A program made the translations under genes and the position numbers. Below are positions 1-63,400 of a stretch of 64,000 bases of DNA, one piece after another (the first letter of the stretch is position 1; the number at the start of each line of letters is the position of its first letter). This stretch comes from Morchella semilibera (taxonomy: Eukaryota; Ascomycota; Pezizomycetes; Pezizales; Morchellaceae). The stretch is from positions 682,001-746,000 of the forward strand of contig WBVU01000012.1 of the NCBI GenBank assembly GCA_009192285.1, given 5' to 3'. The notes under the pieces are model-generated. The model did not search any database, was not told the DNA's origin, and saw only the letters and a list, made by a program, of their open reading frames with translations.

Positions 1-3000
1 CGTAGAAACACTTACCTAAAACTTCAATCATAAATCCGGCGGCATGAACATCTAGGTAGACCATGGATAATCTTTTTTGTGATGCCCATGCGGGTGGGTC
101 AATGATCATGAGCCAGTGATTCACATAACGGCAATATTTCTGCATACACCCAAGCCCGTGTTCGTGTGCATACACATGGCTGTAATGCATCCAAAATAAT
201 AACATCAGCGTCTTTTTGCTTCTAATATCATGCCTAGTCCTGCTGGCGTTCCTCATCCCATCGCCGGCAAGTGGTGTTATCTAGAACACAAGAGTTCTTG
301 TTTTCCGATCTAGAAGAAAACTCATAGAAACACTAGTTAGTGGTGATCTGCCACCACACCCGAACCACATATAATAGCATGTACAGCCAATAACATAATG
401 CTTGTGTTACCAGATGTTTGACTCGACCTTATACCTAGGAAAATCCCCTTGCAGGCACTAATATTATATTAGGTAGTGCATATGTCGTTGATTTTCAGCC
501 ACAATTCCGCAATAGGCGCCGGTGGTAGTTGGGCTATCCTTAAGCTTGTCAACTAATAGGAAAGCATATCGGTTGTTACTTGATATCTGAGGAGCTAGAA
601 CTCTCTATGGGTGCCCCCTCAGGCCCGGGGACGTTGCCTTTTGGTAGATTTCGTGAAAACACCATCCCATGTTCAATCTCCCCCGGGCCCGCTAACAATG
701 GTCAGAACTAGTTTTCTAGTTTGGAATTCTTGTTTTAATGTATATTCTTCAAACAATCGTCTTGACTCACCTTGAGTCAAAAGCAGGGCTCTGTAAGGTT
801 TAGGGCCCGTTTAATTGGCGGGCCGTAGCAAAGATAACAGCGTTTTGAAGCAATCACCAAAGACGTAGCGGAGTTCCGTGTTGAAACAGAGTTTTCTAGG
901 TGGTTGCCTTTGTCCGAATGGCTCCAGTAAAACAGCTATAATCTGACCTTGATTTTTTTTGAAAGTTTCTATACCTTTGAGCATACCTACCCATGCCCAT
1001 ATTGCGGAAGCAAGCAAGAATTCCCACCAGACCTTAATAAACCACATAATATGGATTTATATAGGGTCGATACCTAGACCTAACGATAGTAATCGTTCTA
1101 GTCCTTAAATCCCACATCAAGGAGACTGATATGTTGCAGCTTAATTGAGTTCTGGGGAGGTTAAACTTAGGGCTAGTGGCAGCTAATTAGCTAAGATCTT
1201 AAGACGAACGCTCTCAACCTCAATCCTGATATTATCTGATCATCTTAGTGACGCCTTATTCGTGTATATATACATAGGTTAGTTCGTTGATGGAGTAAGG
1301 CCCACTGAACTTGCGCTTCAGTTGTCAAGGAATATAACCACACCAACCCTACCTAGCATATTTATATTATACCCAAAGGCTGCACTGGAACCCAAGGTTA
1401 TGGCACTATGTAGCCTAGAGATACAGGGTTAGTTTTGAAGGTTACCCTATATAAGAACTCTCAATGTAATGTTGACCCAGTTCATACCTTCTGAACTCGA
1501 GCTGTACCTAAACAATAATATTGGTACTTATCGTAGGCCTCGGCTCCATACCAAAGACCAACACCACTATGATTTCGGTTAATAAACGCGCGGTGGGCGC
1601 CGACATTTCTTATTGCAGTATTTTCTGGTGCGAGGTTGAGGAAAGCTTTTAGCGGGAGTTTTTTTTTTTTGTTTACATCAGTAATCGTATCTTTTAGCGG
1701 GAGTGAACCCTGAGAGCGAACTGATGAAACTACCCAATAATTGAACCGATGGTAAAAACGAGGAGAGAAGGAGGAAGGGGGAAGGTCCCTCTATAGTATA
1801 GTTTTGAAAAGAACAAGTGTCTACAATATCAAAGTACACGCAGTTTGGCGGCTACAGTGAAGGCCAAACAAGTACATATATGACGTAACAAATGACAACC
1901 AGCAAAAAAAGAAGCCAAAATCGTCCCATCTGCCATTTACAATGCCCAGCCCTGGCCCCCGCATGGAAAATTTGCATAAAATCTCGATTAGGGTTAGGGT
2001 TTCCGGAATGCTTTCTCTGGACCCATGCATGGGATATCACTCACTTTTTTTCTTTACATCTATCGATAATCAGAATTCGACCCGGCCGTTTCGTAGCGGA
2101 GAACTGATTTGCCCATGCCGTTGCAAATACACCCACTCTCCACTCCTAAATCTCTCCAAAAACCCATTTCCCCCCTTTCCCATCCTAAAATACACGAAAC
2201 CCAGAACACCTCTAAAATAACCCGCACAACCTATCATTACCCTCCCTGGGAGGCCCCGGCCCGAATTCATCTCCATCCTCTTCCCCAAGACTCGGCCGAC
2301 CGCCGGACGGTACAATCCTGACACTCCCTTTTTTACCCACCACAGGACTGGGATTGGCTGGGGTGTTTTTTTTTTCTTTTTTTTTTTCCTCCTCTGATCA
2401 GTGTTGCGGTCACTGGGGATCACTCGCTCATTGCTACTGACAAGAGAGCCTCAGGTAATAAGGAGGACGTTGTTCGTTAGTTGGGGCAGGGCGGATCCGG
2501 CCACGACCCGATCCCGGGCCAATGTTTCAAGTGATATCACAGTCAAGCCAAGGGGACCAATGAATGGCATGTATCAGCCATTGTACCGTTCAGACCAACG
2601 GCGGTAACGAGGAAGATTATCTTATCGGATATAACTACTCGGCTTGGCCTCTTGACATGTCTCTAGATGGCCCTATAGCATAGCATATATGGGGTGAAAT
2701 GAAATTTCAATACTCTACGGAGGTAGGTAGTCCAGCTCTCTCATAGCTAACTAGCACGTGGCTCAATAGCTGCTATGTACCTTCAAGACATCATCAAACA
2801 GGGCAGCATGTACATGTAGTTAGTTATACACCCGGCCAAACCCGGCCCAGATTATTCATTTCCGCAGCCATAGCATAATTTCACTTTCCTCCTCCGTCAC
2901 CGTCACAGAAAAATTATCATGATGATGATATGATGCGTCAACCAACCCATCTTTTGAAATAACGATCTTCTCCCTCTGTCCTTCCGCCTGTCCTGCTTTG

Positions 3001-6386: not shown

Positions 6387-6403
6387 GTAATAATAATAAT
6401 AGC

Positions 6404-6438: not shown

Positions 6439-6439
<1 letters not shown>

Positions 6440-12400: not shown

Positions 12401-15363
12401 GACTAGACCTGGGCAGTGATAGGGCGAGGAACCAGGGGCACTCTCTGCGAGGGAATTCTCCTCCTCGTGGTACGGCGGCGTAAGTGATCCTTAATAAGTG
12501 GATTAATATGCGTACTTACTTGCCGACGAGATCTACCAGGAAGCAAGCCTTGATTGACATTGGCTGGTCAAATTGTAGGTGAACAGAGCCTGTGGGTGAA
12601 TGAGTGATCAATGATAATTTGGTGAGAGACTGAGTCGGAGTACTCTACTAGGTAGCATGTACCACCTAAGCTGGGACGCCCGTCCCAACTCTACATATCA
12701 TCCATTGCCAGTGTGATACTGTAAAGTGGCTCATGTATATTTCGAATTCAGCCCCTAGCATCCTTCAGCCGTCATCCTGCATTGATGCTGTTGTCTGCCC
12801 GGAATTGGGCGCGAGTTCGGAAGGTATACAAAGCTAAAAGGCAAGGAGGGTATTTGGATTATCCTTTTTTGAGATCACACACAATTGACATGGAAACCCC
12901 AATTCAACTCGTGGATGGATTGACGGTATGTAGCACAGAAATCAACTGCCTGTCTGGCTATATACATATCTGTGGCCCAGTCAGTCATCAACCCATACCC
13001 GGAGCAGGAGTAGCAGCACTGCAAAGGCTATACACAGTATGTGGGGCAGCTCCTTTATTACCGTATGTATGTGAGATTTTGTCCCTGGGCCTCGGTGCAA
13101 CCTGTGAGCCTGAGCCTGAGCCTTAAGAACACACGAAAGAGAAAGTGAGAGAGGAGTGAGAGAGCAAGTTACGCGTCCTCCGATTCGTCCGCGATCGAGT
13201 TAGATTAGTTTTTGGGTGTCACTTACAAGCGATAGCCAAATATGCCTCTAACCACCTATTTCATCGCCAACTAGCGCCCCATCACGAGAGTTTTCTGACT
13301 CTGGACTGGTACCCAGTCACATACAGGTGTCTCCTCTCCCTGTCTTCCTCTGGAAATAAAAAGCAAAAAAGAAATCATCCGCGTCATTCTGCTGCATCTT
13401 CTCCGCTTCAGACCATGTGTTGGCTGTTTTGGAAATATAGACAAAATTGACTACTATTGGTAGAAAATTGGGCTGTCCCGGCAATCTGGCTGGGCGTCAA
13501 CCTTGACCCACAACTCGGCTTTCTGATCGTGCGTCCGTGCAGCATCATCCTCGCGACTTACTTTCGTTGAACCGCATCGTAGTTAGAAGAGTTAGAAGAG
13601 GACCAACTATTTTGGAGCAAGCCTTGTCCGACCAACCACAGAAGAGGCTTGTGACAAAGACAATCCTGGGTGGTCTAGGTCTTGATCTGTTTTTTTCCTT
13701 TTTTTTTTTTCTCCTGTGCTAAGGGAATACTTTTTTAAGGCCTGACATTCGTTTTTTTTTTCTTCCCACGATTTCTGATCATATGCATCAGAACTATGTT
13801 TTCTCCCTCTATTAGTCTCATAAACAGGACCAAAAAGTTATTATGATTGTGCTGACTGTCGTTCTCAATCATAATCATAATAATAACAACGAACAGAAAA
13901 GAGCAAGACAGGTAACAATAACAAGTAGTGAGCATATCATGCAGCTAGGCAAGGAGTGAGGGAGGACGAAGGAGAGAAGCTGTTGCGATCCAATCTGCCA
14001 TCATGCCCATAGCAAAGGCGAAAAAAAAAACATCATCTCCGATCCATCGATTATATCGGCTTCAAGAGAGTAGGTACATACATGAAGTTAATTAAGCAGG
14101 AGACAGGAAGGGATCATCACCTTATCTTTTACCTAAAATGATTTATTTCCAACTTGTTCTTCGTATTTCCTCTCGGATGTTCCGTTTCACATCAAGTATT
14201 TAATATTGTTTTGGGATAAGCGGAATATCGGTTATGGGCACGACCTGGGGGGGGGGAGAGAGAAGCAAGCGAGGGATGAGTTATAGATTAGGAGGTATAT
14301 GATAGGGAGAGGAAGAAGAAGGAGGCAGAAGCAAGTGACAGACAGCAGCGGTGAGGGGTCCGCCAAGGTGCATACATACATACGAGGACGACGACTACTC
14401 TTCTACCTTGAAGGTAGGACGGTGTATGTACCCTAGATACTCTAGATACAACACGAGCTCGTGGGGTGCAAAATAAAAAAATAAAAAATAAAAAAGGTGT
14501 TCGGGAATATCCATGCTTCATCTAGACGCATGGCGTTTTTGAATGCTTGGACGACTTTGCTCTAACTACATGTACATGTACTTACACAGGATGGGTTGTA
14601 TGTAATGTAGGCTATTGTAGGATGTGCGGTAAGTATCACCAAGAGTAAATAAAGCACTGTCATCCGCTCGCCATGCAGTTGAACCATCGATGGATGATGG
14701 GTCTGCTACCGTCTCGGTATTATTATTTGTAGGTGAAACCCAACGGGATTCTTTCTTCAAGCAACCCCCCCCCCCATCCCCCCCACTATAAACCCAGACC
14801 CCAATCATTACCCCTGCCCTACTTGATCATGTATGTACATGTATGTATATGTATGCATGTAGGCCTATCAGACTGATCTATCGTTCACTGCAGCACCCTT
14901 CTTTTAACATTGATACCCCTGCACATCTCCACACAAGCCATGATCCCACAATCCACCCCAAATCTGGCCCCCTGCGCCCTGCGCCCGTTTGCTTCATGAC
15001 GATTGGAGATGCATGCCCGGTAAGGTTCGGTGACGCTAGGACGCAGACAGCTTAACTACCCGCTGTTCCATCCACCGTTCCTACCTCCTACCTGTATACT
15101 TTATAAATTTATGTATGTGTAGCCGTGCAGCAGTTCTCGCTAACTCGGATGATGGAATCTTGTCGGCGGTCGATGCGCCATCCATCCACAATCCATCATC
15201 CTGGCTCAGGAAGTTGGAAGTCTACCAGAAGGAGGTTGGAGCCTCGTCCTGATATGCCTGTCTCTTTCGAGGTTTCCTTTCTGTGTCTCTGTGTCCCCCC
15301 CCCCCCCTAGCTTGAGCTACAGATGTTGTGTCTCTGTTCTTGAGACTCAGTCCAAATTATGGA

Positions 15364-15482
15364 TACAGCCGTTCACGGGGTTTTGACGAACACGGGGGTT
15401 GGGGCCAATAAAAATCATTATTCTTAGGCGTTGCTACATTGCTACATAGAGAGAGATTCGCCAAAACCCGTGAACGGCTGTA
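15364..15482. mobile_element. 119-bp MITE-like element, TACAG ends, Fot1/pogo-like
   Basis: The left arm starts TACAGCCGTTCACGGG at 15364. The right arm, 15461-15482, is its reverse complement apart from one extra G in the left arm, giving about 21 bp of inverted repeat. The outer TA on each side could be the TA target duplication used by Tc1/mariner/pogo transposons. Next to the left arm lie TTGACGAA and, further in, GGGCCAATA. Both also occur in the element at 30820-30989, so the two are probably related. It has no coding capacity and would need transposase supplied from elsewhere. Confidence 0.7.
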
Positions 15483-16864
15483 CCCTAGTTCATATACTAC
15501 ATGATACATATCCACACTAATTACTTCATCTATGATTTCCGGTACCCCTCCCATGATATTCTAGAGTTTACACACACCACGCCTGCCTACCTAGGCAGGT
15601 TGGACACAATTCATCCATCACCCATAACACACTCAAAACTGAACTATGCCATACCATACTATCATCGTACATTCTGTGTATGTGTCTGGTCTGGTATCTT
15701 CTCCTCCTTCTCCATGCCACATGTACGGCCTCAGTTCCGCATATGTCGAGCGTCCCTCTCCAACCAATCTTCATTCCTTCCAACAGGAAGTGTGGGCTGC
15801 AAACCTATCCATCTGTTTCAGCCGGCATTCTCCCATCGTCGTCTCTGGATACCATGGCGGGCTACCCTGCCTAACAGGAAGAAGATATCATGTAGAGCAA
15901 TGTAGCATCAAGCAACTGCTTCTATCTATGTTACATGATGCTGCTGCTGCACTTTCCCACACGCGAATGCGGTACGTACGTATCATAATCATAATTTTAC
16001 CCCATTCCAAACCAACCAAAAGCCTTCAAGCCTTCATCTTACAAATTTACCACACGCCGTATATGTACGTAGGCCGGTAGGTAAAGTAAGGTAGGCAGGC
16101 AGGCAGTCAAGCAGGCAGAACGGATTGTCTAGTGTTTTTTTTTTTAAATGATATCCTTGCCATTGCATTTTTTTTTTCTTTTCTTTTTTTCCATTTTTTT
16201 TTTATTCCCAACACCATGTACGTTATTCAAATCCTGATACTTTACATGTCTCCGCGGGAAGCCGCCCATTTGCACGCCATCAAAAATGTAGTCGAACTTC
16301 TCCATGCCTACTGAATCGAGATCTTTCAGCCGCGTGCATGATGGTCTTTTTTACCAAGCGTCCCACACACTGACCCTCCCATCCATCCCTCTTCTATGGA
16401 ACCCCAGTTCCCCGCCCCATGTCTTACTAGTCAATAGCAACTACATATTCAAACTACTCATCGTCACTTAGACACCTCTTTATTATAATGACCCGGCACC
16501 CCCTTTCAATTTCCGTTCCGCCTCCCCCTCCTTTGGGTTCTTCCGTGCCCCCAACCCCAGAAGAGTGTTTCTCTGGTCAGCCGCTTCACCGTGCACATGT
16601 GGCTTGGGATCTGAAGCTACATATACTACTTATCAGTCCTCTTCCTCTTCCCTTCTATCACTATCGTATCTCCATACACGCCCCCTCCACAGTCCATATC
16701 TCCCAGGAAGAATATCATCATCATCACCATCATCACAACCATCATCAGTACTCACTCACAATACTTCATTGAATTGTAAGTTCATCGAGTATATATATAT
16801 ATATATAAGATCATCTTTTTAACATTGCTTCAGTAACGCCCCAACCAAAAACCATATACTCATA

Positions 16865-17803
16865 ATGTCTTCATACACCACAATGGATGAGTCTTTCACA
16901 AACGAGAGCGAGATCTATTACGCAAACTCAAATTTCTCAAACTACCCAATGTTCTCAGAGCAGGAGCTTTACTGCTTCCTGCCAACCGAACAGAATGCAT
17001 ATCAGGATGCGGGTGCAAGGGCAGTGTACCCACAATTTGCGACGGGATATTACGACAATGGGATTGTCCCGATGCAGGAGTGTTACTCAATGGGGGCTCA
17101 GGATGGATATATGAGTGCGGAGGAGGATGTCTTCAGTTGCCAGCCCAGTCCATTTCTCGAGCAGCAGTACCCAAGGTCTTCTTTCATGAGCAACAATGAC
17201 TGTGCATCTCCAATCACCCCCTCAGGATCGCCACTTGCATCAGAGATCGAATACTACCACAACTCAGTACCTTCATTTATGCTTGTCCCCGGGTATCAAA
17301 ATGACCAGGTCCAGGACTACGGCTATGGAGTTCCTGCAGTCTACAATGTCCCTTCATTGGCCAGCAGTGTCAGTAGCACCCAGGATATGGTTCAGGATTC
17401 GCCTTGTCTGTCCTCGCCAGCATTGGGCAGTCCCGGATCTGACGACGAGGAGGATGAAGAGGAGTACGAGAATGACATGTCCCTCCTTCCCAACCAGGGT
17501 AACAAGGAGCTCCGGGGAATGGGACTATACGACTCGCCCCCAGATCTTCTGTACACCAACTGTTCCACACCTACAGGATGCTCACCTGTCTCGCCTCATG
17601 CCACTTTGGGAAAGGGATTGGTTTTGGAAAGGAGTTGGTTACCGAAGAAGGGGAAGGTTGAGGTTGAGGAGGAGGAGGAGGAGGAGGAACCAATGATGTA
17701 TGATGAGGAGGAGTGTGGAGAATGGGATGGCACTTACCAGAGCACCTTCCAGCCACAGTATGATATTTCCTTTTATGCCTCTCAAGCTAATAGAGCGTGG
17801 TAA
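16865..17803 (+). CDS. hypothetical acidic low-complexity protein (312 aa)
   Basis: This is one uninterrupted 312-codon frame. It starts at an ATG with a good fungal context (A at -3, after CATA) behind a pyrimidine-rich leader, and ends in TAA. I do not recognise a family. The first 150 residues are rich in Tyr, Ser, Asn, Gln and Phe. Ser/Pro-rich patches follow at about 110-125 and 178-192. There are two strongly acidic tracts, at about residues 193-204 and 266-274 (almost all Glu), the latter preceded by a short basic patch (KKGKVEVE). There is no signal peptide, membrane segment or zinc-finger pattern. The composition resembles a disordered regulatory or activation-domain protein, but that is inference. 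A GTAAAT right at the last codons could be a splice donor; the T-rich DNA beyond looks like a 3' UTR and I see no following exon. Confidence 0.65.
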   Translation: MSSYTTMDESFTNESEIYYANSNFSNYPMFSEQELYCFLPTEQNAYQDAGARAVYPQFATGYYDNGIVPMQECYSMGAQDGYMSAEEDVFSCQPSPFLEQQYPRSSFMSNNDCASPITPSGSPLASEIEYYHNSVPSFMLVPGYQNDQVQDYGYGVPAVYNVPSLASSVSSTQDMVQDSPCLSSPALGSPGSDDEEDEEEYENDMSLLPNQGNKELRGMGLYDSPPDLLYTNCSTPTGCSPVSPHATLGKGLVLERSWLPKKGKVEVEEEEEEEEPMMYDEEECGEWDGTYQSTFQPQYDISFYASQANRAW

Positions 17804-18974: not shown

Positions 18975-19298
18975 GGTGGGATACGGTTATGTATCACGGG
19001 TTAGTTTGGTTTTAATAAGTACATCTTTGATACTTTGCTTGCTTGCTTGTCTGTCTCGCGCCCAGCCCGCCTGTCTTTCTATGTGGTGGGGCTAGTTGTC
19101 TGATATATGATTAGAATCAGATAGATTAGTCTGACTACAACCTACCTAACATCGACATCATCATCACCACCACCATCATCATCACCATAATTATCATCAC
19201 ATCTACAACAACAACAACATACAAGCAATATGGGGAAGCCGGGCGTATGCGCGAACGGATAAGTGCTTGATTAAGGAAGGAATGGAACTACTTAAGAG

Positions 19299-19987
19299 TA
19301 CATGTATATATACTATAGATAGAGGGATTAGCACAGACAAGCTAGCAGACAGGAAGGAGAATAATAGCAAGAATAATAATTAAATACATGAAGTGCGCCA
19401 GTATTTCTGGAGTACATGTACAGAGAGAGATGTGCAATGATACTCCTTCCTGCCTGGCTTCCTGCGGGCCTGGATGACCTCCCCCTCCCTAGAAGTTTGA
19501 TCATTACCTCTTTGTATAATGCTATACAATCTATGTATAAATATCTGATCGCGATCAGATCCGGCCGGACATATCCCACATTCCTCCGCTAATATTACCA
19601 CTTTAATATTACACCAGCTCCTGACATACTACCTACCTAGTTTGTATAGTAGGGTGCTACATGTAGTATTAGTTATTAGTTATTGCTCCACATCCGTACA
19701 TGATAAAGTCTTACCCTGCTTCTTGACTTGTCTTGGTCTTGGTTTTGCAATGTAACCTGTTGGATCGATCACTGTCCCCCCCCCCCACCCAGTACATGTA
19801 GCTAGACCTAAATATATTAGTCACCACCACCACCACCACACATCGACCGTCGGGAGGTTTCCCGCAGCAAGTCTCACTTCCTTCCGTCCTCATCCATCTT
19901 TTCCCACCGCATCATGTGCGAAGACATACATAACTTAGTTTTATGTGTAACACGTTCGTTGAGTTATGTAGGTACATGTACATACCT

Positions 19988-20020
<33 letters not shown>

Positions 20021-20822
20021 CTAACTAACTAGTTAATACCCTAGAGAAAGAGACTGAGCTTGATCCCGGGGCGGCGCAGCCGGCCTTTTCGAAGGTTCTT
20101 TTGATTCTCTGCCTGCTCTAATTCACACCACATACATACTACATGCACTAATATACCGTATCCCTGTCGGCTGGCCCTGCAGAAGAGAGGGAAAGTGTGG
20201 TTAACCTCAATTAAGGCTTATCGACTGCCGTCTGTATCGGCCGGGGGTTAGGTTATTTAGTAAAGTAGAGTACAATATGTAGGGGGGGAAGGGAGGGGGA
20301 GGGGGAGCCAGTTAGCTACATAGCTAGATGAGCTGAGTTGACTTGACTTGAATTGCCGAGCCCTGGATATGCTGGGTTGGGTATCCCTACAGGCTTCTGG
20401 AGTGCGCACGGTATTAGTACCTACATGGAAGTCTCGTAGGAAAAGGAAAGAAAAAGGGCTACAATTAACGGCCATCCGTCGGTGAAGATGGGATGCATCC
20501 GCCGACAGTTCTGGAGCAGTATCAGTCGCAGTAGTATTAAAAAAAAATATTTAGACGCGGACTGGCTGGCTGGCTGGCTGGATGGCTTGAACTGTTACTG
20601 GTCTTGCACATCCTGGAGCACGGAGGTAGAGTACATAGAGTACATGTATGTACATGTACCTACACATCTCTCTCCGCACTACCTGGCAAATGTTCCTACA
20701 GGCAGGTGAGGGAGTATCCAGTTTTTTTTAAATGCTCTAGAATTGGCAAGACCTACAATACATACATGTACATACAACATACACATAATACACACAATAA
20801 ATAAGTAGTACATGTACATGTA
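19299..20822. repeat. cluster of ten TACATGTA palindromes
   Basis: The exact octamer starts at 19299, 19413, 19658, 19793, 19973, 20641, 20651, 20763, 20809 and 20815; the last two overlap. Spacing is irregular, so this is not a tandem satellite. Surrounding DNA is also rich in GTAGGTA/TACCTAC words. It could be a set of protein-binding palindromes or insertion targets; the sequence does not say which. Confidence 0.75.
19990..20018. repeat. poly-T tract
   Basis: A homopolymer of about 29 T in intergenic DNA. The exact length may be unreliable in any assembly. Confidence 0.9.
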
Positions 20823-23800
20823 AGTCTACATCGCCCCGTGTGGTATGCTACTATCTAGAGCCATGAAATGGCACATCCCATCAACCACCCACGCACTTAC
20901 TGCATAGGGACCCACGCAAACCGCCAAAACCACGCAGAAAATCGGGCATGGGGGGCTAATTATGAAAGAGAGACAGATACGGTTGATTCGGGGGTTTATC
21001 GCTCTAGAATCCCAGGGTTCTTGCTGTTGTTTATAGCGATCTAAGCGAATGAGAAGAAAAAACATTATCCATAATATGTTACTTCCAACCCCCCAGTCCT
21101 CCTCCTCCCCCCCCCCCCCCACCAATGATCAGGATCATCACATACTTATGCCCCCCCCGCGCGCGTCCTGATCCACTCCGGGCTCCCCACCCCGTGTTTC
21201 AACTGTTTTCAATTCTGGAACCGACCCGAGGTTGAGCGTCCCTGGCTTAGGAAGGCAGGTAGGCAGTTAAGGCAGGGTAGGGCTGGCCGGCATCGAGCTG
21301 AACATCTACCTCTTCATGAATCGAGCCGGCAGAGGATATATTACGCCCTTTCCTGTCGGGTAATGGAAATAATAATGAAAATATATAACATCCTTCCCGT
21401 TTCTCCCTTCCTATTCTCGTATGTCAACAAGTACGGGACAATTGCAACACATACACTCCGACGTCTATTTAGGGGTGTTTTAAATACGCACATCACATGC
21501 ATTACCTTCCTACATACGCACAACTTGAAGTACCTACATACCTTAATGTGAAATTGGTTTCCGCTCAGGAAGGACAGGAAGACATCATCAGCAGGCGAAA
21601 CGAAATACCGGTAGACCGGAAACTTTTTGGGCTGGCTAGTGTTTAGGAACCCCGATAGTGTGTGAGCACTCATGGGCCTATTTTGGGATGTCAGGCACAA
21701 CAAACAGTATGTATATATTTTGTACCTAGCCATGTACCTCCAGTACCGGCGGTATCTCCCTGCTCTTTCTCACACCTAAGCCGCTCCTTCCGTTTAAATG
21801 TACATAGATCGAATAGTTCGGAGTTTGCCTTATTCCCCCCGTATGGAGGTAGCACTACGGGGCGCGCAGGATAACTTACGTTCTCACTTTATGTACAACA
21901 TTACCACTTTTTTCCCTCCATCGGTTGGGGTTTGAGATCGCTTGCGCTTGGGTAACCGTGCACCGTCCCTCCTACGTGGCGGTAGGGTCTGATATAGACA
22001 AGGTACATATAAATTTTATACCTAACGTTTTATATCTGCTTTTTGCCTTGGATTAGCTATTGGGATTTAGAAAGGGCCTACCTGCCCATTTATCCAGTCA
22101 ATTTAACCCGATATACCCTGCACTGTGGTACCTGGCTTAGGTACCTCAGTGATAGCGATGGGGTTTTAAAGTTGCATGATCATTCTAAATTCCCACCCCC
22201 TCTCTTTTTTTCCATTTCGAGGAGCCGGTTTTCCACCCGAGTGCAAGATTGTGAATGGATTTAGTGATCGAGTGACTAAGCGGGAAATAAGCCCGAAATC
22301 TTATCTGCGGCAGTGCGTGCACGCCTAGCCACAGGTTTGGGCCTGAGGGAAGGTCGGAGGTGGAAAGATTGATCTGTGTTGTAATTTATGTACTGAGAAT
22401 GCTGTGTTTGCCTAGGGACCTGCAAGTTGATCAATTATCACGGTAATCATACGTTCTCGCTGGTAAGTCTCAGACTTACCATCCCTTTATGGTGCCACAA
22501 GAGGTCAATGTGTAAAAGGGTGTCATTGATAATGAACTCGAGTGGAAAGTAAGAGGCAAAGTCAGCCGACTCTCGAGATGGCCTTGGCGCCCAGCATGAC
22601 AAAAGCTTATTTCCGAAAGAAATCAAAACCGGGCGCATACATGTATGTAATCCGCAGCCTCGGTTTAGGATAAGATGTGTGTTGGTATTGGGCCATTCAT
22701 GATAGATCACTCGGAAGTCCCAGCGATGGCGGTTAGCAACTGAACTAACTGGACGCGCGAGAAAGGAATAGCGAAACCCAATCTTAGCCCCGGCTACAGA
22801 AACCATGATCGATAATATTGCGAAGGTGGATGTGATAGGTTCAGAAACATTGCTAAGTGGTTGGTGGTTAGCTCTTCAGAAACATCAGCTAAGCTATGGT
22901 TAGACCGGGTGATCGCGAGAAATCACCAGAAGGAGGAGGACTTCGTGTCAGGTAAGCGCAGCACACGATATGTAGTTGGTTTAGGGCGCACAACACAGAT
23001 CCGATATGCTGTATATTTGTAGGTATGTATGTCTTCAATCTTGAGGTTGAAAGTCAGTGGCGGTGTTTGCTACCGTATTGAGTCTCTTGTTGGCATCATC
23101 TAAAACCTGACACAGACATATCCGACACGCACGCTTTGTTATATCGGGTCACGCCACTTGGTAAGAAGGGTGGATATTTCTTTCCGCGTGTGTGGGACTT
23201 GTCCCGTGGGCCTGGGAGCAGCAGCAGGAGCAAAAGAGAAGAGGTCTAAGCTTTGTGAGGGGATCCGGGTTTGGACTCTGATCACGTGCACGGACGGTCT
23301 TTCCTTACATTCGTTATTTGTCTCAGCCCGGAGAGCGGCGGTGGGTGACAGCACGTACTTTATATGAGGACCTCGGATTTGGCAGGCCGGAGGACCTATG
23401 TTTCATAGTCTGCGGATCACAATTAGCTAGGGGAACCAGGCAGGTCAAAATTTTTTTTATTGTTTTTATGCCAGGCCAGCAGGACCATGATCCCAGGGAA
23501 CTTGACAGAGAAGGGAAAGAATGTGAGGAATGCCCTTAGTAACTGACCAAGGACTGGCATGTATGTATACTCTGGATACGCGCGGTCACATCATTTGCGT
23601 TACCTGGTTTAGCCAGACAACTGACAAATGGGAGATCCTCCTCACACACCCATATCGGACACAGAAGGCGGGGGAGAGCTAGTCTGCTAGTTGTCGTCAT
23701 CACATCAAATCCTTTGAAACAATTGATCTCCTTACTTCATTCTCTTCGTCTAGTGGTTAAACGTGCTTCTCAACAACTGACTGGACCATAGTAAACATTA

Positions 23801-27359: not shown

Positions 27360-27449
27360 GTACCTTGGGTGTAGGGGTAAGTGAGAAGACACCACTCTAC
27401 CATGGTTGCGTGAAGGGTGTCTTCTCACTCACCCCTACACCCGAAGTAC
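27360..27449. mobile_element. 90-bp foldback element, GTAC-ended family, diverged copy
   Basis: Arms 27360-27393 and 27416-27449 are 34-bp inverted repeats with three mismatches around a 22-bp loop. The arm core GGGTGTAGGGGTAAGTGAG matches the arms of the elements at 24914 and 33184 at most positions, while the loop differs. It lies directly beside a TACATGTA at about 27351. Outer ends are GTAC on both sides. Confidence 0.7.
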
Positions 27450-28233
27450 AGTACATAAACAGTGATATGTCGTTTGGTTTTGATTCGGCTGAGATAATAA
27501 GGTAATTTATGACGAGATAGCCATTTCTTAATTAATATCTATCTATCCGATTGAACTCCTAATCGTATGTCTGATATCATGATCAACATTTGGGCGCTCT
27601 TTGAGTTGGTAATTACTTATAAAATGAACTATCAATTAAAGAATAGCTCAATTGGATCCATCCCCAGATGTCTAGGATAAGTTCGAGAGAGCGATAAATG
27701 CTATACGCTACCACTATTTCATCGGAGCCGGAGATCGTTTCTGTTATCGGCCCTCAACAAGAATGGAACGGTAGCATCCCGAATTTTTATCGTCAGCACC
27801 TTTACTCAAGCCGGGTTGGCTAGTGACGCCCCTGCGCTAGGCAGAGAAGGAATTTGAGTTAAATACGATATACGCCATGACATACGTACGCCGATAGTAG
27901 AGGTGAAAATGATGGAAATTTCAGTAAGGGGGTATCTATGGTTATCTATATAGAGGCGGGCATAGCTAGGAATTATTGGGCTTATGTGCATACCTTTAGG
28001 GTATACGTATATGATAAGGAGCGATGCATGGCGAACTGTTTGGTCAAAGGACTTCATGAAGAAGGGTGTGGTTATTTGATTGAGGAGTGGAGATTGCTCC
28101 TTATACTTGTTTACAAGCCATCTGGCTGCCGTTTGTGGGCGCCAGGACCTATTATTTGCCAAGAAAACATTATTTTACACCACCCAAACATTTACGCGGT
28201 CTACAGATTTCTCTAGGCCAATTGTCAACAAAT

Positions 28234-28675
28234 TACATGTACTTACATGTAGGTTAAAAGTATTGAGTGCAAATCTGACTACACGTATGCGGGGTCCCCG
28301 CTTCCACCTATTCTCTCCCGGACCGGTTGGGGGAGCTTTCGGTTGTCGAGGGAAAGATTAAAAGGTTGGCCCATGTATTTTTGTGCCAGTTAGGTAAATA
28401 AGGGTCATTGTAGTTCACCATAGATCATGGAGTATCACTCGAATTTGAGATCCCGAAGGGAGGATGTTTTTTTTGTTCAATTAATCTGATAAGATAAACA
28501 CACCAGATTCTCTTATCAGATTCCTCTATTCTTCGTATTTACCCTCGACCCCCGGTACATACATGTATACATGTAGGTTTCCCGTGTGTTTTGGGTGCTA
28601 GCTATACATGAATGTACATGTACATAAAGTACATGTAGTTCCTTTTTCTTTTTTTGTTTAATTCACATACATGTA
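28234..28675. repeat. cluster of seven TACATGTA palindromes
   Basis: Exact copies start at 28234, 28244, 28560, 28568, 28615, 28630 and 28668. Two of them (28630, 28668) share the longer word TACATGTAGTTCC. The cluster lies just beyond the stop codon of the SET-domain gene. A separate 12-bp perfect inverted repeat (28483-28494 with 28511-28522) contains GATAAG and its complement. Confidence 0.75.
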
Positions 28676-30649: not shown

Positions 30650-30752
30650 TACAGCGGTGGGTAATAAGTCATCGGATACCCTAGCCACAATTTTGCCTGC
30701 AAACGCGCATTCTGGTAGCGTTTCGTCCGATGATTTATTACCCACCGCTGTA
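30650..30752. mobile_element. 103-bp MITE-like element with 27-bp inverted repeats
   Basis: Arms 30650-30676 and 30726-30752 are inverted repeats with one mismatch in 27. They begin TACAGCGGTGGGTAATAA and end in the mirror image, CCGCTGTA. Flanking bases make GTAC at both outer ends. The 49-bp core is non-coding. The TACAG start and TA edges match the elements at 15364 and 30820, but the arm sequence differs, so a common family is not proven. Confidence 0.7.
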
Positions 30753-33422: not shown

Positions 33423-33991
33423 TACATGTAGGTAGTAGGCGCACAGGTATTTTGGTGCTCTCCCAGGTGGTGTGCACAATAGGCACTACACCTACATGGA
33501 ATGAGAAACCCGGTCCCTACATACATGTAGTATCGTATCTGCGTGATGTGCTTGACTGACCCTCACAGCTACGTATTTAGTTGTAGGTACCTGGTGTCGC
33601 AGTCTGCAGCTGGCCGGGACGAGGCTAAAATATCCGGGAGGGTGACAGACAATTGGTGCGATTCAACAATGGGTCATTCATCTATTAAAAGATGGAGAGG
33701 TTAGGCCCTAGAATGTGTTGGGACCCGGAGGGTACATGATCAGTACATGTATACGTAGGGAAAGTTGGTATTTGAAAAATAAGGATATATTTTCGACAGT
33801 AGTAGTTAATTGTAAAAGTGATGTTAATTGCTGAATTATGCACCTACTATCGACGCTCCAGCTTGAATTCGACTTGGGGGGCGAAGAGTGGTGGGTCTTG
33901 GGAGTTGACATGATATGAGTGATCCATGGTGAGAGACTGGGTGATTACATGTAGTGACACTGTCAGTGAAAATAGCTAAAAGGTACATGTA
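33423..33991. repeat. cluster of five TACATGTA palindromes
   Basis: Exact copies start at 33423, 33522, 33744, 33946 and 33984, in AT-rich non-coding DNA just beyond the short foldback element. Confidence 0.7.
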
Positions 33992-37984: not shown

Positions 37985-38174
37985 AGGCGCCGGAGAAATA
38001 AACTGTCCCGAGGGAAAGGGTTTACTTTTTATTTTTTATCTTACTATACCATTTAACTACCAAACAGCGGTCGATCATTTAACCGCGTCCCTTTCTGTTG
38101 AAAACCCTTCATCCATCCCCCACCCACACCCAAGTTCCCTTTCTTATCGACACCGACATCAACAATCTACAAAG

Positions 38175-44194: not shown

Positions 44195-47074
44195 TCACAC
44201 CCGTGACCTCCCCAGCAGCCTCCCGCACAACTGCTCATCCACCACGCCGTCACTATTTCCCAACCTATCGACTGCCTTGATCAAGTCATAGTTGATGCTC
44301 TGGCTCACGACGCTATCACCCCTATAGTCGGGATGGGTGCGAACAAACTCCCTAATCCACGCGGCACCCGTCTGCAGCTCCCCGCTTGCGCGCTTCGAGA
44401 CTAAGCTTAGATATCCGGCCAGCTCGCATCGGGTCACGACGTCGACGTTGACTGTGTCGAGGTAATTCTCAATCAGGGGGATCAGCCCCAGGAACTCATT
44501 GGTCTTGCTACCGTTCATAATCTCGTCGATTGTCATGAGGCAATACTCCTTCTCGACGGGACCAGGGGAGGCGGGGCGTGAGGGTGCTGGGGTGCCCCCG
44601 CTCGTGGTCTTGCGCGGTGGGAAAAGGTTTTTGCGGAACCAGAACTTTTCAGTCAAGACCGCACCACGGCGGTGTGCCGTTGCCATGTTCTCATCGACCT
44701 GGTGGTTGTGGACCTAGGGTTAGCTAGGGACACAGGATTTGACAAGTAACTAGGCTCATGTGTGCTGGCCCCAGCTACAGGTAGCAGGAAAGGGATACTA
44801 CTGATACCAACCTTGGATATCGGGATATAGAAGTTCAATCCGTAAGACAAGATCACCCTCGTGAGAAGTATGATGAATATTGCAAATGCAGCATTCTCAT
44901 TGTCAGTCAATTGAATTTCCATACTACGGAATTCTACCCTCCAGCCAATGTTACCACCTGGTGGAGGAGGCTTGAACCGCATATGTTGCCAGTTTGTCGA
45001 TTGGATATTCTTAAAACCCCAAATAAAGAGCGAGGGTCAGCAATCGCTTCCTGTCGCGTTCTACCGAACTGGTCTCACCTCAAAATGGTCCGCCTTACCT
45101 TCCGGTGACCCATCTAGGGTCTCCTGGAAGATAACCAACGGGTCCCGGATGAACAAGTGGGCAAAATGGGTTGCTAGGTTCTCGTCCATACCTGCATTTT
45201 GCAAAAGAAAATAAAAAAAGTCAGCCACGCGTTATTCCCGATATGATACGATGGTTATGATAAACCGAATCCAGGATGGAGGGGTGGGTGCCAATCAGAC
45301 CATCATCCATAAGTGACTTTTTAATATCATTGTCGATTACAAGATCCGTATCATTATACTCTGGCCTAAAACGGGGATCCTGCGAGATGTACGCCGATAC
45401 AGAATCGTATCTTGATTTTGGTATCACGAAACGGTTATTTTTGAGCGGCTGTAACTTCCGTATCAGCATCTCTTATTAACCACGAGATCCACTCTGCCAA
45501 CATTTGAATCATTTCAAGAGTAATGATTAGGAAGAAGGGGAAAAGGGGGAGGCGGTTGACCTTCAATCCCTTTTCTTCATCGGTACGATCGTCTACAGCT
45601 TGGGAGATGACATTCCACCTCACATCCACATCCGCCAAAAAGCCCTTGAAAATCGGGGTAGCCGCCGTTAAGGCCAACATTATCGGGCCCAATGGGCACA
45701 ACTGATCATAAAGCATCCTTGCCTCGACGATATTCTTCGCCTGCAGCGTGATCTGCAAGCAACAGCAGCCCATCCCAAAACCCATAGCGTCCATATAAAT
45801 GTGACCTTCCTGTGCCGCGCCATTCCGCACGTCGTCGTCCTCGGGAAATAGATGTCGATCGTAGTCTATTGTAGGGTCACGGAACGGTCGGGGCGTCTTC
45901 TCGTCATAGAAGACGGGCATATTGATGGCCACCTTCTTGCCACGCCGTGACCGAATGTTGGCCGATAGCGTTGGAAAGCGGATGTGCGGGTTGATCACAA
46001 CGTCGGAGAGGAACTGACTACGTGACCTTGACCCATCCGCAACTACATGAGGATGAGTGAACACATCCTTTACACCCAGTAGCGGGAAGTTTGGCAGCGT
46101 GATGACCGCCTCGTTTTTCGCCATGTGCTGCTTTGCAATGACTCTCCTGCAAACGCAAAAAGTAAATATTAAAAAAAACCTGTTTTAGGGCCTCGTACAG
46201 GTTCAGTAGCAGAAGTGTGCTCTAGCTAGCTGGCTAAAAACGGAGCCAACTAACGAAAGACAAAACGACGCACCTGCGCTTCATGTCTTTCTCCACAGAC
46301 AACAAATCCTTCCAGGTCAGGTTGAAGGGCGCACCAGGGGTTGATTCGATCTGGAAACGCCCGTACTCGGGGTGGAAAGTCGGCATGGGCCCACAGACAC
46401 TGCATAGAAGAAGCTTATTAGACATTTACTCCCTACTAGGTTGCAGTGTAACTACTGACTCTTCTGGTTTACTGATCTCTGGAACACCACCCCCTGCCTT
46501 CCTTAATTTCTCGTCATTGGCAAGCTCCTCGAGAATTTCGGCTTGCCGAAGCGAGAGGAGAGCATGTTTCTTCTCATCATCATAAGAGACAACGAGATAT
46601 TCAAGCTATAGAGCAATGTCGTCAGTAAGCCGTATTCGAACTCAAGTCCGTAGTGAGAGAGATATTAGTGGAACATATAAGAAGATCTCATATAGCCCCC
46701 CCCCCCCCAAGATTAACATACCTCATCTCCCCACAATAACACATCCCTCTCGTTGCCCCTGTAATTCTTCCAGATCTCCAGCAATTGCTACAGAGACACC
46801 AATTATCATTTATCAGTATCCCCACCCAAAAATTCGGCCAAAAATAAAAATATAAGTTGTGAAAAAACCGCACCCCCTGCATTGGGCCCGGCTGTACACC
46901 TCGCATACCTGTATTCCTAACTTCCGAACCTCATCGGCATGGTACTTTGCATCCTCCCATTCCAGCGGGGTTCCAAGAGCTCTAATTGGGGGGAGAGGTG
47001 GCTTAATCAGCAAGATTCATTTCCCCAGGACGGCGGGCGGGGTAAATGGTAGGTAAGACATACAGTAGACCCAT
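44195..47074 (-). CDS. gcs1: glutamate-cysteine ligase (gamma-glutamylcysteine synthetase), 662 aa
   Basis: Ten exons: 47074-47064, 46981-46909, 46787-46722, 46605-46456, 46413-46274, 46146-45561, 45448-45301, 45191-45079, 45009-44812 and 44698-44195. The first coding exon is only 11 nt and splices to give [12 protein letters not shown], the family N-terminus. The enzyme joins glutamate and cysteine with ATP, the first and rate-limiting step of glutathione synthesis in the cytosol. Motifs include LLWGDELEYLVV (43-54), [10 protein letters not shown] at about 110-119, [13 protein letters not shown] (266-278), [60 protein letters not shown] and [17 protein letters not shown]. The length is close to fungal homologues. 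The junction of exons 4 and 5 is the weak point: the frame needs an AAG acceptor at 46414 (42-nt intron), while a better-looking CAG at 46400 would break the frame. Two donors are the uncommon GTCAAC and GTCTGA. Confidence 0.92.
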
Positions 47075-55172: not shown

Positions 55173-56923
55173 CTATGGCAGGGGCGAATTTGGTGCGTTC
55201 CTTCCCGCTATTTGTCCGCTTCCGTTCGTGTTCATGTTGGATTTGCTCAACTTCCTGGTGAGCTTAGCGTAATCTGTTTCAATTTTTCAAATCAGTATAC
55301 TTGTTCTCCTATTCACCCCTAAACTTTCCAAGAGTGCATGTGACATACGTAGTCCGCAAGCGTTACAGAGCGTTCTTGCACCATCAGGTCCTCTTCTCCA
55401 CTCAGGTGTCTCGGCCCGGTGGCAGCTATGACAGCGCCCAGGTGGTGCAGCCCGCTGTTTCAAGTCAGCGGGGATGAAAACTAGGAAAACCCTTTTGGGC
55501 ACACAAGAGCACTCACGCCTCTCCGGATTTTCTTGGCATCGGGTTGTGCCGATCCGTTTGACCTGGTATCATCCGCATACCCATGATTGTCATCGCCCCC
55601 ATACTCCGACGAATGGCTAGTGTTCACCCTCTGTGCATTCTGCTCCGCATATTCCTTCGCACATAATTCCTGAAACACCTGTTGGCAGCTTCTCAAAGCC
55701 TCCGTGTTCCGATTCGAGCAATCAACCGCCTCCGCCAATTCCCTTAAGCAATGGTCCAAAAGGTTGGGTTGTAGGTTTTTGGCGACATCTTGGCAACTTT
55801 GTACGATGTAGTAGATTCTCGATGAGTTATCTTTTGTCTGTAAAAAAAAAAAAAAAAAAAGCAAAGAATGTTAGAGTTTCATGTTACTCCTAATATAGTC
55901 GTTGTCCTTGCTTACCAAATCAAAGTCCCTTCGTAACGTCGAGATAGAAAGCGCCCTCTCTATTGTAGATCCGTAATTCCTCTTTATCCCTACCCCTGAA
56001 CCAGGTGACGATTGAGGTGGATCATGCGGTGGATATCCATCCCGCGGGTATGAGTACGACGAAGATGAATGTGGTTGTTGCGAATGTGGCTGATATGTTG
56101 ACTGCGACGGTGGAGCACTCGAATGCTGCGGGAACGGATACTGTTGTGATGAACTACTACCACTACTATACGAAGGTGTCGGCGGATATTGTGGTGATGC
56201 TATATGATGTGGTGGCGGCGGAGGATACGAATGTGATGGCTGAAACGGAGGAGGATGCCCATTTACCGGTGGGTACGGGTCGCTTGATTGAACTCTTGGA
56301 ATCACAGGTGGTGGAGGCGCAGCTGCGTAAGGGTTAGGTGGTAAAGTCCTTGAATGCTCTTGGCTGTTTCGTCTATTATATGATTCGTGGCTGTGTAGAG
56401 GGCCAGGACCTGCTGAGCTCTGCGGCGCCGGTGGAGGAGGAGGCAAAGGCGGTGGATGTGAGTAAGTTGAACCCGACAGTGGCAGTGCCTGCACACTCGG
56501 CAGTGTCTCTGGTTGACTTCTCGGCATCGAGTCGGGATGTGAAGCTGAAGGCCCCGAGAATGAGCCCTGTCCTAAAGGCGGTGTCTGCATTGGCGACGGT
56601 GCTGGAAATGTCCTGTCATCCTTATTGTACAGGGCCTCCGACAGCGACGGCAGCGACTGCCTCCCCTCCGCCATCGGTGGAAGGGTCTGCCTACAATCCT
56701 CATTCCTCGATGTCTTTCGCGAGTCTGGTGGTGTGTTGTAGCCGCTGGTTGCGTGTGATGATGATTGTGGTGGTGGGAAAGATAGTGGCGGCGTTGGGCC
56801 GAATGTTGTTGTTGGACTGATGGGCGAGGCTGTCGATATACTATTGCGATTATTTATCGACGGATGTCGCTGGTGGTATTGGGCACCCTCCCTCAATACC
56901 CCCTCGAAACCCATGTAAGCCAT
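55173..56923 (-). CDS. nsdD: NsdD/SUB-1-like GATA transcription factor (sexual development), 511 aa
   Basis: Four exons: 56923-55916, 55837-55517, 55454-55349 and 55273-55173. Introns are 78, 62 and 75 nt with GTAAG, GTGAGT and GTATGT donors and CAG acceptors. The spliced protein is 511 aa. Residues 1-336 (exon 1) are Pro/Ser/Tyr/His-rich and disordered, with runs of proline. Exon 2 holds a helical region with [19 protein letters not shown]. The C-terminal GATA finger is type IVb (C451, C454, then 18 residues, C473, C476) inside [20 protein letters not shown], followed by HYAKLTRKL across the last junction. The pre-finger RAAPPGR and post-finger HYAKLTRK are characteristic of NsdD/SUB-1 rather than of WC-1, WC-2 or AreA. 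NsdD promotes fruiting-body formation and represses asexual sporulation in Aspergillus; SUB-1 acts in light-regulated development in Neurospora. The role here is inferred from those homologues. Confidence 0.88.
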
Positions 56924-58460
56924 CGATGGCAGAGTATCACTAAAAGACCAAGGTTAGACACAGGCCTGTTTGGTATTTAAAGGTATCCTTGCGTCTTTTG
57001 TAGTTTAAGTCCTCGAAAAAGCGTATCCATTACGTCGTCTCTACCTAATGAGGAGTAAAGAGGTAAAGCATAGAGAGGTATTATGAATATAGAGAGGAGT
57101 GAAAGGCGGAGTGGACTTGGGGAGTTGAGGAGGGATGGGGAGGTAGTAAGGTAGGAAGGGGAAGAAAGGGAGGAAGAGAGAGAGAGAGGAAGAGAGAGAG
57201 AGGAGTATTTTGGCAACTATGTGTGGCTCTTTACGTACCTCTGCCTTCTATTTTCCGATGACTCCATGCCTGTGGCGGGAGACAAAGGAGGTGATAACGG
57301 GTTCACGGGGGGAAGAATGTTGAAGGCTTATCTCGAGATGGAGGTAACTTTCTTGAATAAGGCGGGAGGCGAGCCGCCGGTAGCTGAGACTAGTCTGTTA
57401 CTGGAGCTAAGAGGGCTGGATCGTGGGGAATCGAGGTAGTGTATGGTCGTTGCGGTGGACAACGAACGAACGACGAACAGCGAACAGCGACAATGACAAC
57501 CGACGACGACAACAACGACAAAAGGCTAACTACAATAGTTCAGCCTTAAGGTTTACCGCGTATATCGTTTAAAACTGGCGAATTGACGCAATCTGTGTAG
57601 AAGTTTTAAATCTTAGTATTGTCTATGGTCCCTGAGGATAGTGAAACTTTATCAGTCGCAAAGTCTCCCAGGGCTAATTACCAACGCAGCAATGAGCCAG
57701 TTAGTGTTGACAAATGTAGCCGTGGGTCTCCGAAGTTAAAAGTAGGTAGGTACCGGGTTCCGGTAAGTGATGTGAATCGAACTATTATAACTAATAGCAA
57801 CGAGGACTGCAACGACGTCGTTGATAATAATAATAATAATGACAACAAAAATAACAACAATAACAAAAACACAACCCTGATGTGTTCTATTATCTTGGTT
57901 CCTGACTGATTGTAAAGAAGGCCAGGCGTGACGACGTTGTGGGATAGGTGGGTGTTATGTAGTTGATCGAATGTGGGAGTAACAAACGAATGTCTGCGAC
58001 GACAGATGGGGGACCCTGGGGATAAGTAGGTATTATGTTATGCGAACAGGTGGCGGAAGCTAGCTCTTCTGTTGCTTCTATCTATGTCTGGTAAGGGACT
58101 TTGTGAGCATATGAAGCTTTTTGCGGGGGGGGGGGTGGTAGTGGAGGTGGTGGCAGTAATAAAGTTAGGGTGTGGTGTGTGTGTATGTGGTGGTGGGTTG
58201 AGCCTAGCGAGACTAGAGATCGATCCAACGATCTAACAGCGGCACCGGGGAGGCTTCTGTCTGGATGTGATATAAAGATGGGGGTGGTTGTGGTGGTTGT
58301 GAAGTGAGGAATATTATGTAGACTTACTTTTACACTCACTCAGGAAAAATCAATGAGCAGGAGAAGCGCGGCAGTATGTAAGAAGAGGCAAGCGAGGAAT
58401 GGTCGGACCAACAGATGAAGGGAGACACCCGGGACGGCAGAAGAAGTAATTGACGGATTT

Positions 58461-58504: not shown

Positions 58505-58603
58505 TGGTGGTGGAGAGAAAAGAATAGATAGAGGTAAAAAGTGTGAGCGCAAGAAGTAGTAATGTATGTATGTAGGTGAGTACTGAACTGACTAGATGGG
58601 AAA

Positions 58604-58638
58604 GTACGGTAAGTACGGTAGGTACGGTAGGTACGGTA
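58604..58638. repeat. 9-bp tandem repeat GTACGGTAG, about four copies
   Basis: The unit starts at 58604, 58613, 58622 and 58631. The first copy ends AA instead of AG. Confidence 0.85.
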
Positions 58639-58674
58639 CAGTGAGTGAGTATTTGTGGATGTGGGTGGGTGGTG

Positions 58675-58713
<39 letters not shown>
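58675..58713. repeat. TGTC tetranucleotide microsatellite
   Basis: About nine perfect TGTC/TCTG units in non-coding DNA. Confidence 0.95.
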
Positions 58714-60437: not shown

Positions 60438-60463
60438 CCACCACCACCACCACCACCACCACC
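60438..60463. repeat. CCA trinucleotide microsatellite
   Basis: About eight tandem CCA units in non-coding DNA. Confidence 0.9.
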
Positions 60464-63400
60464 TTCACTTCCTCCTCAAGGCGGCTAGGATGGGGATATC
60501 AATTGGATTGGTGGACCTCCTTCTCCTCACAAAAAAGAAGCAAAGCAAAAAAATACACCCCAGTACCATCATAAAAAGAAAAGAAAACTAAGGAAAAAGA
60601 ACAAGAGGGGGAAAAGAACCCACCATACAGTCCAGTTCATGCTCGCGCCGAAGTGAACGAACAATTCATTAAATTATGACCCTTCCCTCCGTCCTTCCCT
60701 CATTCCTTGACCGGCTTCAGCGGCTCTTTCGTAAATATACTTTATCTAAGCAATTAGTCCTCTTCGGCGGCGGCCACAAGAGAAGTGCGGAGAGACTCGT
60801 TAAGGTGACCTTGGGTATTGGGCCTGGGGGGGGGTTAACCCAGCCTGGTCTAGTACTCCCACAAAAAAGGCGTTACATTACACTAAACACGCTAGTGCCC
60901 CTACCCTACCCTCCACCACTCCACGCGCAACCGTGATCGATTTCATCGACAAGCGGTTTCGACCCGCCGGGAATGGACCAAAAGTAGATGCGTTGACGCA
61001 TCTGCAGCTCACCACCACCACCCAACCCATGGGTCCAGGTCCAATCCGTTCAGCTGGGTTCTGTCACTGTTATGTGTATTCCCGAGGGCGTGTGATCTCC
61101 TGTGACCTATGAGACTTTTTTGCTTTTTGGTCAAAGGGGAAGAAACTGGTGATGGACCTTTCCCAAGATCTCGTGTCTCTTCGCTTGATCAAAAAAGCTC
61201 GCAAATCGTCTTTTCGGATTCACCCGGCGCCCCCTCCCCCCTTCCCCCCATCGCTCCCTCTCCTTGGCATATACTAGAAATGGTCTGTTGGACCAATTGG
61301 AGATCGACTGGAACGAGCCAGATGATATTTCATGATCCTGCAAGAAAAAAAAGAAAGAATGAGTGAAAAAAGAAAAAAAGAGAAAAGAAAAAGAAAAACA
61401 GAATCAATCAAGACCCGGTAACCTGCCTCCCTCACTTCCTCTACTCTACCGGTGCTGCAACTAAACTATACTGCATGGGTTCATTGATTCATGAGTAAGA
61501 AGAGGGTGAGTTGGTACAGTAAGTAACGTTAGAACGAAAAGAGATTGAAATGAAAGGGGCACTCAAAATACGAGCAGCACACATGAATTGACAGTTCCTG
61601 TACGTCCCGTCTAACCAGTATGTACGTATGTACATAGAGTCCCAGCTATCTGGCATACTCCGCGCGCAACACAGACCAGCTGGGTCGTAAGGCATAAACT
61701 TCTCTCCCATCAGGTGGAGGCGGCTGTGGGGAGCGCGGGAAGAGGAAAAAAAAAAACGTTTTTTCATTTATCCAAGGCTTTCCTTGCTAGGCTATCTCTA
61801 TCTCGTCCACGCCTAATAACTATTTTCTTACGGGGAGAGCCGAATATATGGCCCATACCTAGATCCATGATCCATCCGGCCCCGAAAACAGCGAAAGAAA
61901 AAGAGAAAGGGAAGAAAAGAGAGACCCAGATCTGGAATTTCTCATCCATCTAATCGAAGCTTCTCTCACATCAGCCAGCCACGCGAAAACCCAGGAAATT
62001 GGTCAGTCAGTAGGCCTAGAAGCGCGGAAAAAGCAAAAAGGGGTGAAAACATCAGAAACAGAATAGGCCAGCTCAACGCTTAAAAAGGGAAACAGAAGCA
62101 AAAAAGAAGCAGTAATTTTCTCTGAGGCTGACTGGCTGGCTGGTATGTCCGTCAATCTCAATCTTCCTCACGCATTCCCCCATTCCTTATGTGGGCGATT
62201 TTCGTGCACTTCCTTACTCATTTAATACACATGCCCTTCTTTGGGAGAGTCTATTAGATAATGGACCAAAAAAGTGGTATGGTGCAACCCGATCTTCAAG
62301 GTGACAGCCTTTCAAATTGATATAACTCCCCAACCACAAAAGATATTACGATTACATTAGATACGGGAGTAGATATGTTGGTGAAGATGCTCCGTATCTA
62401 GTTAATAGATATTCTAATTGTGGTGTTGTTATCCAGTCCAAATTGCCCGTTTTGTATGCAGAATATACAATGAATGGTAATATTATACCATTTATACCCC
62501 CCCCTCCTCAACCCCAAACGTCCCATCACACTGAGCATAGCGAAGCGGCTACAAAATAACCTTCTCATTGGCCGAAAAGTCTCTTTTTAGCCAAGATTGC
62601 CCCACTCCAAAAGAGGGATATGCCACCTTTTAGAGCTGGACGCGCCATGCCTAGGTAGTTGGAGACGAGAGATCCAAGAGATCTCCTCTCTCTCTAGCTG
62701 TCTGTGATCTCCGCGCACGCGCTCCAACCTCCTTTCGAGTATCATAAAAAGAAAATAAAGGGCGACTTTTCTACATTTTCCTTTACTTCTTTTTTTTTTT
62801 TTTTTTTTTGCTTCTTCTCTCGCTGGGCTGTTGGCGACGATCTCCCATCGTCGAACGCCATACGGCCCCCCCGAATCCAATGATAGGGGGGCGCGCGTGC
62901 GTGCAGGGGTGATACTACTGATAGAGAGAGAGAGAGAGGAGAATGTGGAAGTGTTTTTTTTTTCTTTCCCTCTCACTCTCTTTTAATTTTTCCAGCGGAC
63001 GATGTTACACATTACATGTAACCCTCCACAATAACGCCTTCTAAGCGGCCTGGTAGGGGAATATCGCTCAAGGGCTTCTGGGGTTTTTTTCTTTTTTTCT
63101 TCTTCCCAGATCTGTGCAAGAAAAATTTCACCATGACGGATTTACACATCTGTCACGTCAAAGTCAGCTCACAAGGCAATTGCAAGGTGTGCGGTTTTGG
63201 GGTTTTGCGGTTGCGGAACATCCCATCGCGCGAGCTCTCGCGCGGCCCCACACCCCCGGGTCAAGTTGCCAACCACACACCCATCCCGATCACCCTCCAG
63301 ATCCGAGATTTCAGATAACCGGCAGACAAGTCCCCCGGGGGAGGATGTGCCGGGGTATGGCATGAAGAAACATGTACTAGTAGGGGTTTAAAGAGATGAT

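Follow-up and report, generated by a model that had tools for sequence, protein, structure and literature searches.

What places a single palindromic octamer, TACATGTA, some fifty times in a short stretch of the genome of the morel Morchella semilibera? The window, by which we mean the whole stretch of 64,000 nucleotides analysed here (contig WBVU01000012.1, positions 682,001 to 746,000 of the forward strand; C11:682001-746000 of the genome), contains 51 exact copies. The original prediction had counted about 50 and correctly began their span at 2811, although it closed the span at 63017, three bases short of the end of the last copy. We consider it quite likely that TACATGTA is the excision footprint, or scar, of transposons of the Tc1/mariner superfamily, and that the elements leaving it were probably for the most part short miniature inverted-repeat transposable elements (MITEs) moved in trans.

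2811..63020, no strand assigned: copies of TACATGTA (n = 51 by exact word count, the first at 2811-2818 and the last at 63013-63020), read as excision footprints

The excess is large and confined to the exact word. One hundred dinucleotide shuffles of the window gave a mean of 1.09 copies and a maximum of 4, which corresponds to an approximately 47-fold excess. Only the T run and the A run are commoner octamers in the window, with the G run equal, and each of the 24 one-mismatch words of TACATGTA is present in 0-7 copies, so that the excess is restricted to the exact word. Of the sampled octamers counted 40 times or more, TACATGTA is the most distinct from its own one-mismatch words. The excess over a Markov model held as well: an order-3 model of 292 kb (window plus sampled loci, both strands) predicts 12.7 copies against 252 observed, about 20-fold. 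Four loci fetched for the motif (L001-L004) and duplicate loci were excluded here and from the flank counts, the octamer ranking and the gene-model mapping, as well as from the one-mismatch flank, target-signature, matrix and TA-NN-TA analyses given below. Across the 56,756,124 bases of the genome (23 contigs) there are 22,206 copies, compared with 3,723 of the reversed control ATGTACAT, and the density in the window is about double that of the genome as a whole (51 versus ~25 per 64 kb). Genome counts are somewhat inflated because some contigs are near-duplicates: C9 and C10 share a stretch of 9,952 identical bases, and matches fall at paired places on C12/C13 and C21/C22. These pairs are either two nuclear haplotypes or redundant assembly. 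C9 and C10 were considered as informative alleles and set aside, as their identity over the 9,952 bases carries no information. Among the RPB2 entries listed, that of Morchella sextelata is 99% identical to the RPB2 of contig C22, five of Tuber are 96% identical and those of other Pezizales 84-88%, which places the genome within Morchella or beside it.

The original prediction confined the octamer to non-coding DNA. In DNA called coding by a rough self-trained hidden Markov model (61.6 of 298 kb, a count that includes L001-L004), none of 160 copies was found, versus 17 of 213 one-mismatch words. Because just 0.9 copies would be expected there on both strands, we conclude that the enrichment is absent from coding DNA and do not claim a purge below chance.

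The source of such a word is suggested by intact elements. A search for TA-flanked inverted repeats starting with CAG yielded seven elements of the form TA-CAG...CTG-TA in the sampled sequence, two of them in the window; four of 11 rows were dropped, all from one tandem-repeat region of L016, and 12 further rows with the head CAT were counted and left unused, being taken as pairs of TACATGTA. One element, L031, has copies on C9 and C10; all are ~1.68 kb long, 98% identical and bounded by inverted ends CAGCGGTAGGTAAAAAGT between TA and TA. The open frames of L031 and of a second element, L029, carry DDE_3 and HTH_Tnp_Tc3_2 domains with 34 residues from D to E by hand count, i.e., DD34E, and the nearest solved relative of the L031 transposase is Sleeping Beauty (E 1e-34). 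The DDE_3 profile has 69 matches in the genome, many of them partial, and for two published assemblies of M. importuna TcMar-Tc1 is given as 121 and 117 in the available text of PMC6164635. L031 was rejected as the sole source of the scars, given only three full copies, two of these on duplicate contigs, and for this reason MITEs were sought. The two elements in the window are as follows.

15364..15482, no strand assigned: 119-bp MITE including its TA duplications, TA-CAGCCGTTCACGGG...-TA, from the inverted-repeat search, with related ends
30650..30752, no strand assigned: 103-bp MITE including its TA duplications, TA-CAGCGGTGGGTAAT...-TA, with ends resembling those of the Tc1-like element L031

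Allowing up to three mismatches, the genome contains 304 ends like those of L031 and the MITE at 30650-30752 (4 for the control), 77 like those of the MITE at 15364-15482 (7 for the control) and 15 like those of L029 (0 for the control).

An element with ends CAG...CTG would enter a TA and duplicate it, giving TA-CAG...CTG-TA. If the transposase then cut each 5' end 2 nt inside the element and the remnants were sealed by end joining, CAG...CTG ends and a 2-nt stagger would together leave TA-CA-TG-TA, which is TACATGTA; loss of one remnant would leave TACATA or TATGTA. We infer the stagger from its product, and likewise the repair route and any present activity. Tc1/mariner excision is described in the available part of PMC3878927 as leaving the donor site with overhangs of 2 or 3 nt, which end joining converts into a footprint. 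The mechanism is already known, and it is the scale that is unusual in the literature searched. Scars would collect in non-coding DNA because insertions into genes would be selected against. By this route, we infer, most of the 22,206 copies arose.

The scars and the intact elements share a target preference. In the flanks of TACATGTA, A stands at -3 in 150 of 251 and T at -4 in 126 of 251. Once flanks in microsatellites are taken out, a signature of A at -3 or T at +3 is found in 148 of 246 TACATGTA flanks and in 586 of 1884 flanks of eleven other TA-NN-TA words. The same signature occurs in 11 of the 14 flanks of intact elements (P 2.5e-4), in 9 of 12 without L019, whose arms differ by four mismatches, and in 19 of 22 if the dropped tandem-repeat rows of L016 are included. 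Scored with a matrix derived from TACATGTA flanks, element flanks reach 1.16 and TA sites at large -0.63, and none of 100,000 random draws of 14 TA sites attained the element-flank score. A at -3 and T at +3 are also part of the ATATATAT preference around the target TA which, in the available text of PMC7913693, is common to ZB, Sleeping Beauty and Bari; ZB likewise begins TAcagcgg and prefers the palindromic ATATATAT target.

The signature extends to the half scars TACATA/TATGTA, where it is present in 255 of 622 flanks (P 8e-6). This is expected if the words are scars and is not expected of a palindromic binding site. The count excess of TACATA itself was not used as support, as TAGCTA, TAATTA and TACGTA are similarly enriched. 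As an observation in its own right, TA-NN-TA words in general (TAGCTA, TAATTA, TACGTA, TACCTA) exceed a low-order Markov expectation about two-fold outside coding DNA but not within it, and TAGAGTA is raised too (74 versus 36 expected); other TA-targeting elements are possibly behind both.

A dispersed non-coding repeat of ~275-290 bp, starting ACTAGGGGTT, occurs at L017:7293-7585 and ~20 further places (L016, L039-L058). A genome search gave at least 56 match rows for it, with 40 of 105 candidates scored, and its copies are ~63-100% alike. We compared 22 copies; two of them, L051 and L052, appear to be a single locus represented on duplicate contigs. One TACATGTA position is common to 19 of the 22. 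At a second position 16 of the 22 carry a plain TA (..AAC-TA-A..) and five are deleted or changed; L057 reads AAC-TACATGTA-ATCC there, six bases more at the TA and one A fewer just upstream. The shared TACATGTA is doubled in L057, and L017 has a 4-base insertion readable as TA to TATGTA. Other insertions in this family are mostly ordinary duplications. Separately from this repeat family, removal of six bases at 158 sites, meant to restore periodic arrays, gave 4 at the predicted spacing and 5 at an unrelated one.

Each scar would supply two fresh TA targets, which would favour double words and clusters. The genome contains 501 doubles TACATGTACATGTA versus 90 of their reversed form, and in the window the three clusters named in the original prediction were recovered with the 10, 7 and 5 copies it gave them.

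14567..14580, no strand assigned: double TACATGTACATGTA, interpreted as a footprint whose TA took a second insertion that later left
19299..20822, no strand assigned: cluster of 10 copies of TACATGTA in single-copy DNA (19200-20900 has one match in the genome), downstream of the plus-strand gene model 16831-17767
20809..20822, no strand assigned: double TACATGTACATGTA
28234..28675, no strand assigned: cluster of 7 copies of TACATGTA, located 3' of the minus-strand model 28780-29218
33423..33991, no strand assigned: cluster of 5 copies of TACATGTA, on the 3' side of the plus-strand model 31460-32042

From ~18,300 TAs in 292 kb, about 3.6 million can be expected genome-wide, of which scars hold ~1.2%, and 2.3% of the scars are doubles. 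The latter figure exceeds random targeting; the fit of scar TAs to the target preference may explain the excess, and slippage may add to it.

Several observations weigh against an origin by excision. The element ends found with the three patterns number ~396, about 56-fold fewer than the 22,206 scars, which requires that most sources have gone, have decayed or are members of other families. The proposed stagger also departs from that of the nearest solved relative. Sleeping Beauty cuts 3 nt inside its ends in the available part of PMC7827188, and footprints of Sleeping Beauty, Frog Prince and ZB are 3 nt or shorter in that of PMC3878927, with C(A/T)GTA for the first two, whereas the 3-nt products TACAGTA/TACTGTA are near expectation in the morel (44 versus 36.9 in 292 kb). 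Tc1 of Caenorhabditis elegans has the same TA site, CA...TG termini and taCATGta among its reported footprints, although in the available texts the 6-base word is called rare (PMC3520976) and a 4-base scar is typical in the soma, at 78% (PMC13148408), while in the morel it is the 6-base word that stands out. Few decayed scars are visible: the genome has 38,153 one-mismatch words compared with 41,979 for those of the control word, their flank signature in the sample is weak (0.35 for transitions), and the four central-transition words, with microsatellites removed, carry it in 33 of 96 flanks. If neutral, the scars must be young relative to mutation at eight bases. An excess of one-mismatch words (406 versus 256 expected, both strands) was rejected as support for decay, since the transition ratios of other palindromes are comparable and little of the flank signature is present. 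In addition, most of the element flanks scored derive from few families, and the raw 2.19-fold excess of TACATA in non-coding DNA is matched by TAATTA (2.17) and TAGCTA (2.09). L057 is a single clear filled/empty case rather than a statistic, in a copy that is also one A short nearby, and pairwise alignment splits its event into +2 and +3.

The main rival to scars is a palindrome-binding regulator, such as a homeodomain dimer of the Irx/TALE type or a factor with a general regulatory or architectural role, whose site would be selected at ~22,000 places. Such selection would suit a word that is exact, with one-mismatch words not above control, and that 19 of the 22 compared copies of an old repeat have kept intact. 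Irx homeodomains, moreover, prefer TACATGTA according to a citation in PMC3520976. Motif-1 of Phytophthora is an identical octamer, which the available text of that paper describes as very abundant in upstream DNA, lying upstream of 12,070 genes and tracking gene induction, and as judged by its authors not to be a transposon footprint. In the morel, binding is hypothetical and the placement of the copies speaks against it. The original prediction had proposed mapping them relative to gene starts, and on 54 rough gene models (records of at least 9 kb, 264 kb in all) no promoter peak was found, with 6 copies within 300 bp upstream versus 6.6 expected. By length, 51.9 copies would be expected upstream and 34.0 downstream, and 60 and 54 were observed, respectively; introns hold none (0.9 expected), and 7 copies are in records without genes. 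Nor does a regulator predict intact TA-inserted elements sharing the flank preference of TACATGTA, the signature on TACATA or the change from TA to TACATGTA in L057. We regard a regulator as rather unlikely. Of the three options in the original prediction (binding site, signal for structure or replication, scar or target of a mobile element), the scar is the one supported by elements, ends and flank preference, and the binding site is left without promoter enrichment.

Spread of TACATGTA within TA-rich non-coding DNA, through slippage during replication or tandem duplication of units like TACATG, appears very improbable. It would be in line with the common doubles, with the 4-bp and other tandem insertions in the ~275-290-bp repeat family and with the general, about two-fold enrichment of TA-NN-TA words in non-coding DNA. 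However, doubles make up just 501 of the 22,206 copies, the 51 copies of the window lie in different flanks, and slippage produces neither isolated exact octamers nor a target signature. A tandem satellite, dismissed already in the original prediction, or a microsatellite was likewise rejected: one of 36 tandem-repeat rows in the window holds TACATGTA, a 2.1-copy array at 28605-28637, and doubles are as few as just stated. Least likely of all is a replication, recombination or chromosome-structure signal, which would fit the genome-wide spread in non-coding DNA but predicts no link to elements, and the clustering is irregular.

The HIP1 element of cyanobacteria offers a parallel, being an exact 8-bp palindrome far above expectation genome-wide. 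Its sequence differs from TACATGTA, it is present in coding DNA too, unlike the morel octamer, and it is not known to be linked to element ends. The MoISW2 palindromes of Magnaporthe were also considered and set aside, TACATGTA being absent from the available text of PMC11481914. No paper on both TACATGTA and Morchella was found in the open-licence literature, with most subscription papers outside the search.

Further features of the window comprise three genes recognized by Pfam domains and an inverted repeat.

27354-27456, no strand assigned: 103-bp near-perfect inverted repeat, 81% identical to its own reverse complement, adjoining the TACATGTA at 27351
31436-31804, plus strand: aldo/keto reductase gene (PF00248)
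38157-38810, plus strand: Zn2Cys6 transcription factor gene (PF00172)
44195-46184, minus strand: glutamate-cysteine ligase gene (PF03074)

The long frames at 16868-17800 (plus strand), 28770-29447 (minus strand) and 55871-56953 (minus strand) have no Pfam match.

Work on excision footprints usually deals with small numbers of them. If ~22,000 survive in the morel as one exact word, past transposition could be counted in a genome where intact elements are few, and the rate of exit, the choice of target and the outcome of repair could be read from the scars. A caution for motif finders also follows, as transposon scars can take the form of a strongly enriched palindromic octamer, and this bears on motif-1 of Phytophthora. 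It is tempting to go further, although we hold what follows to be doubtful: scars rather than elements might be the main residue of cut-and-paste transposition in the morel, at ~56 scars per element end found, the exit of transposons, whose scar happens to be a perfect homeodomain-dimer site, may have created tens of thousands of sites with regulatory potential, and the same process could underlie motif-1 of Phytophthora.

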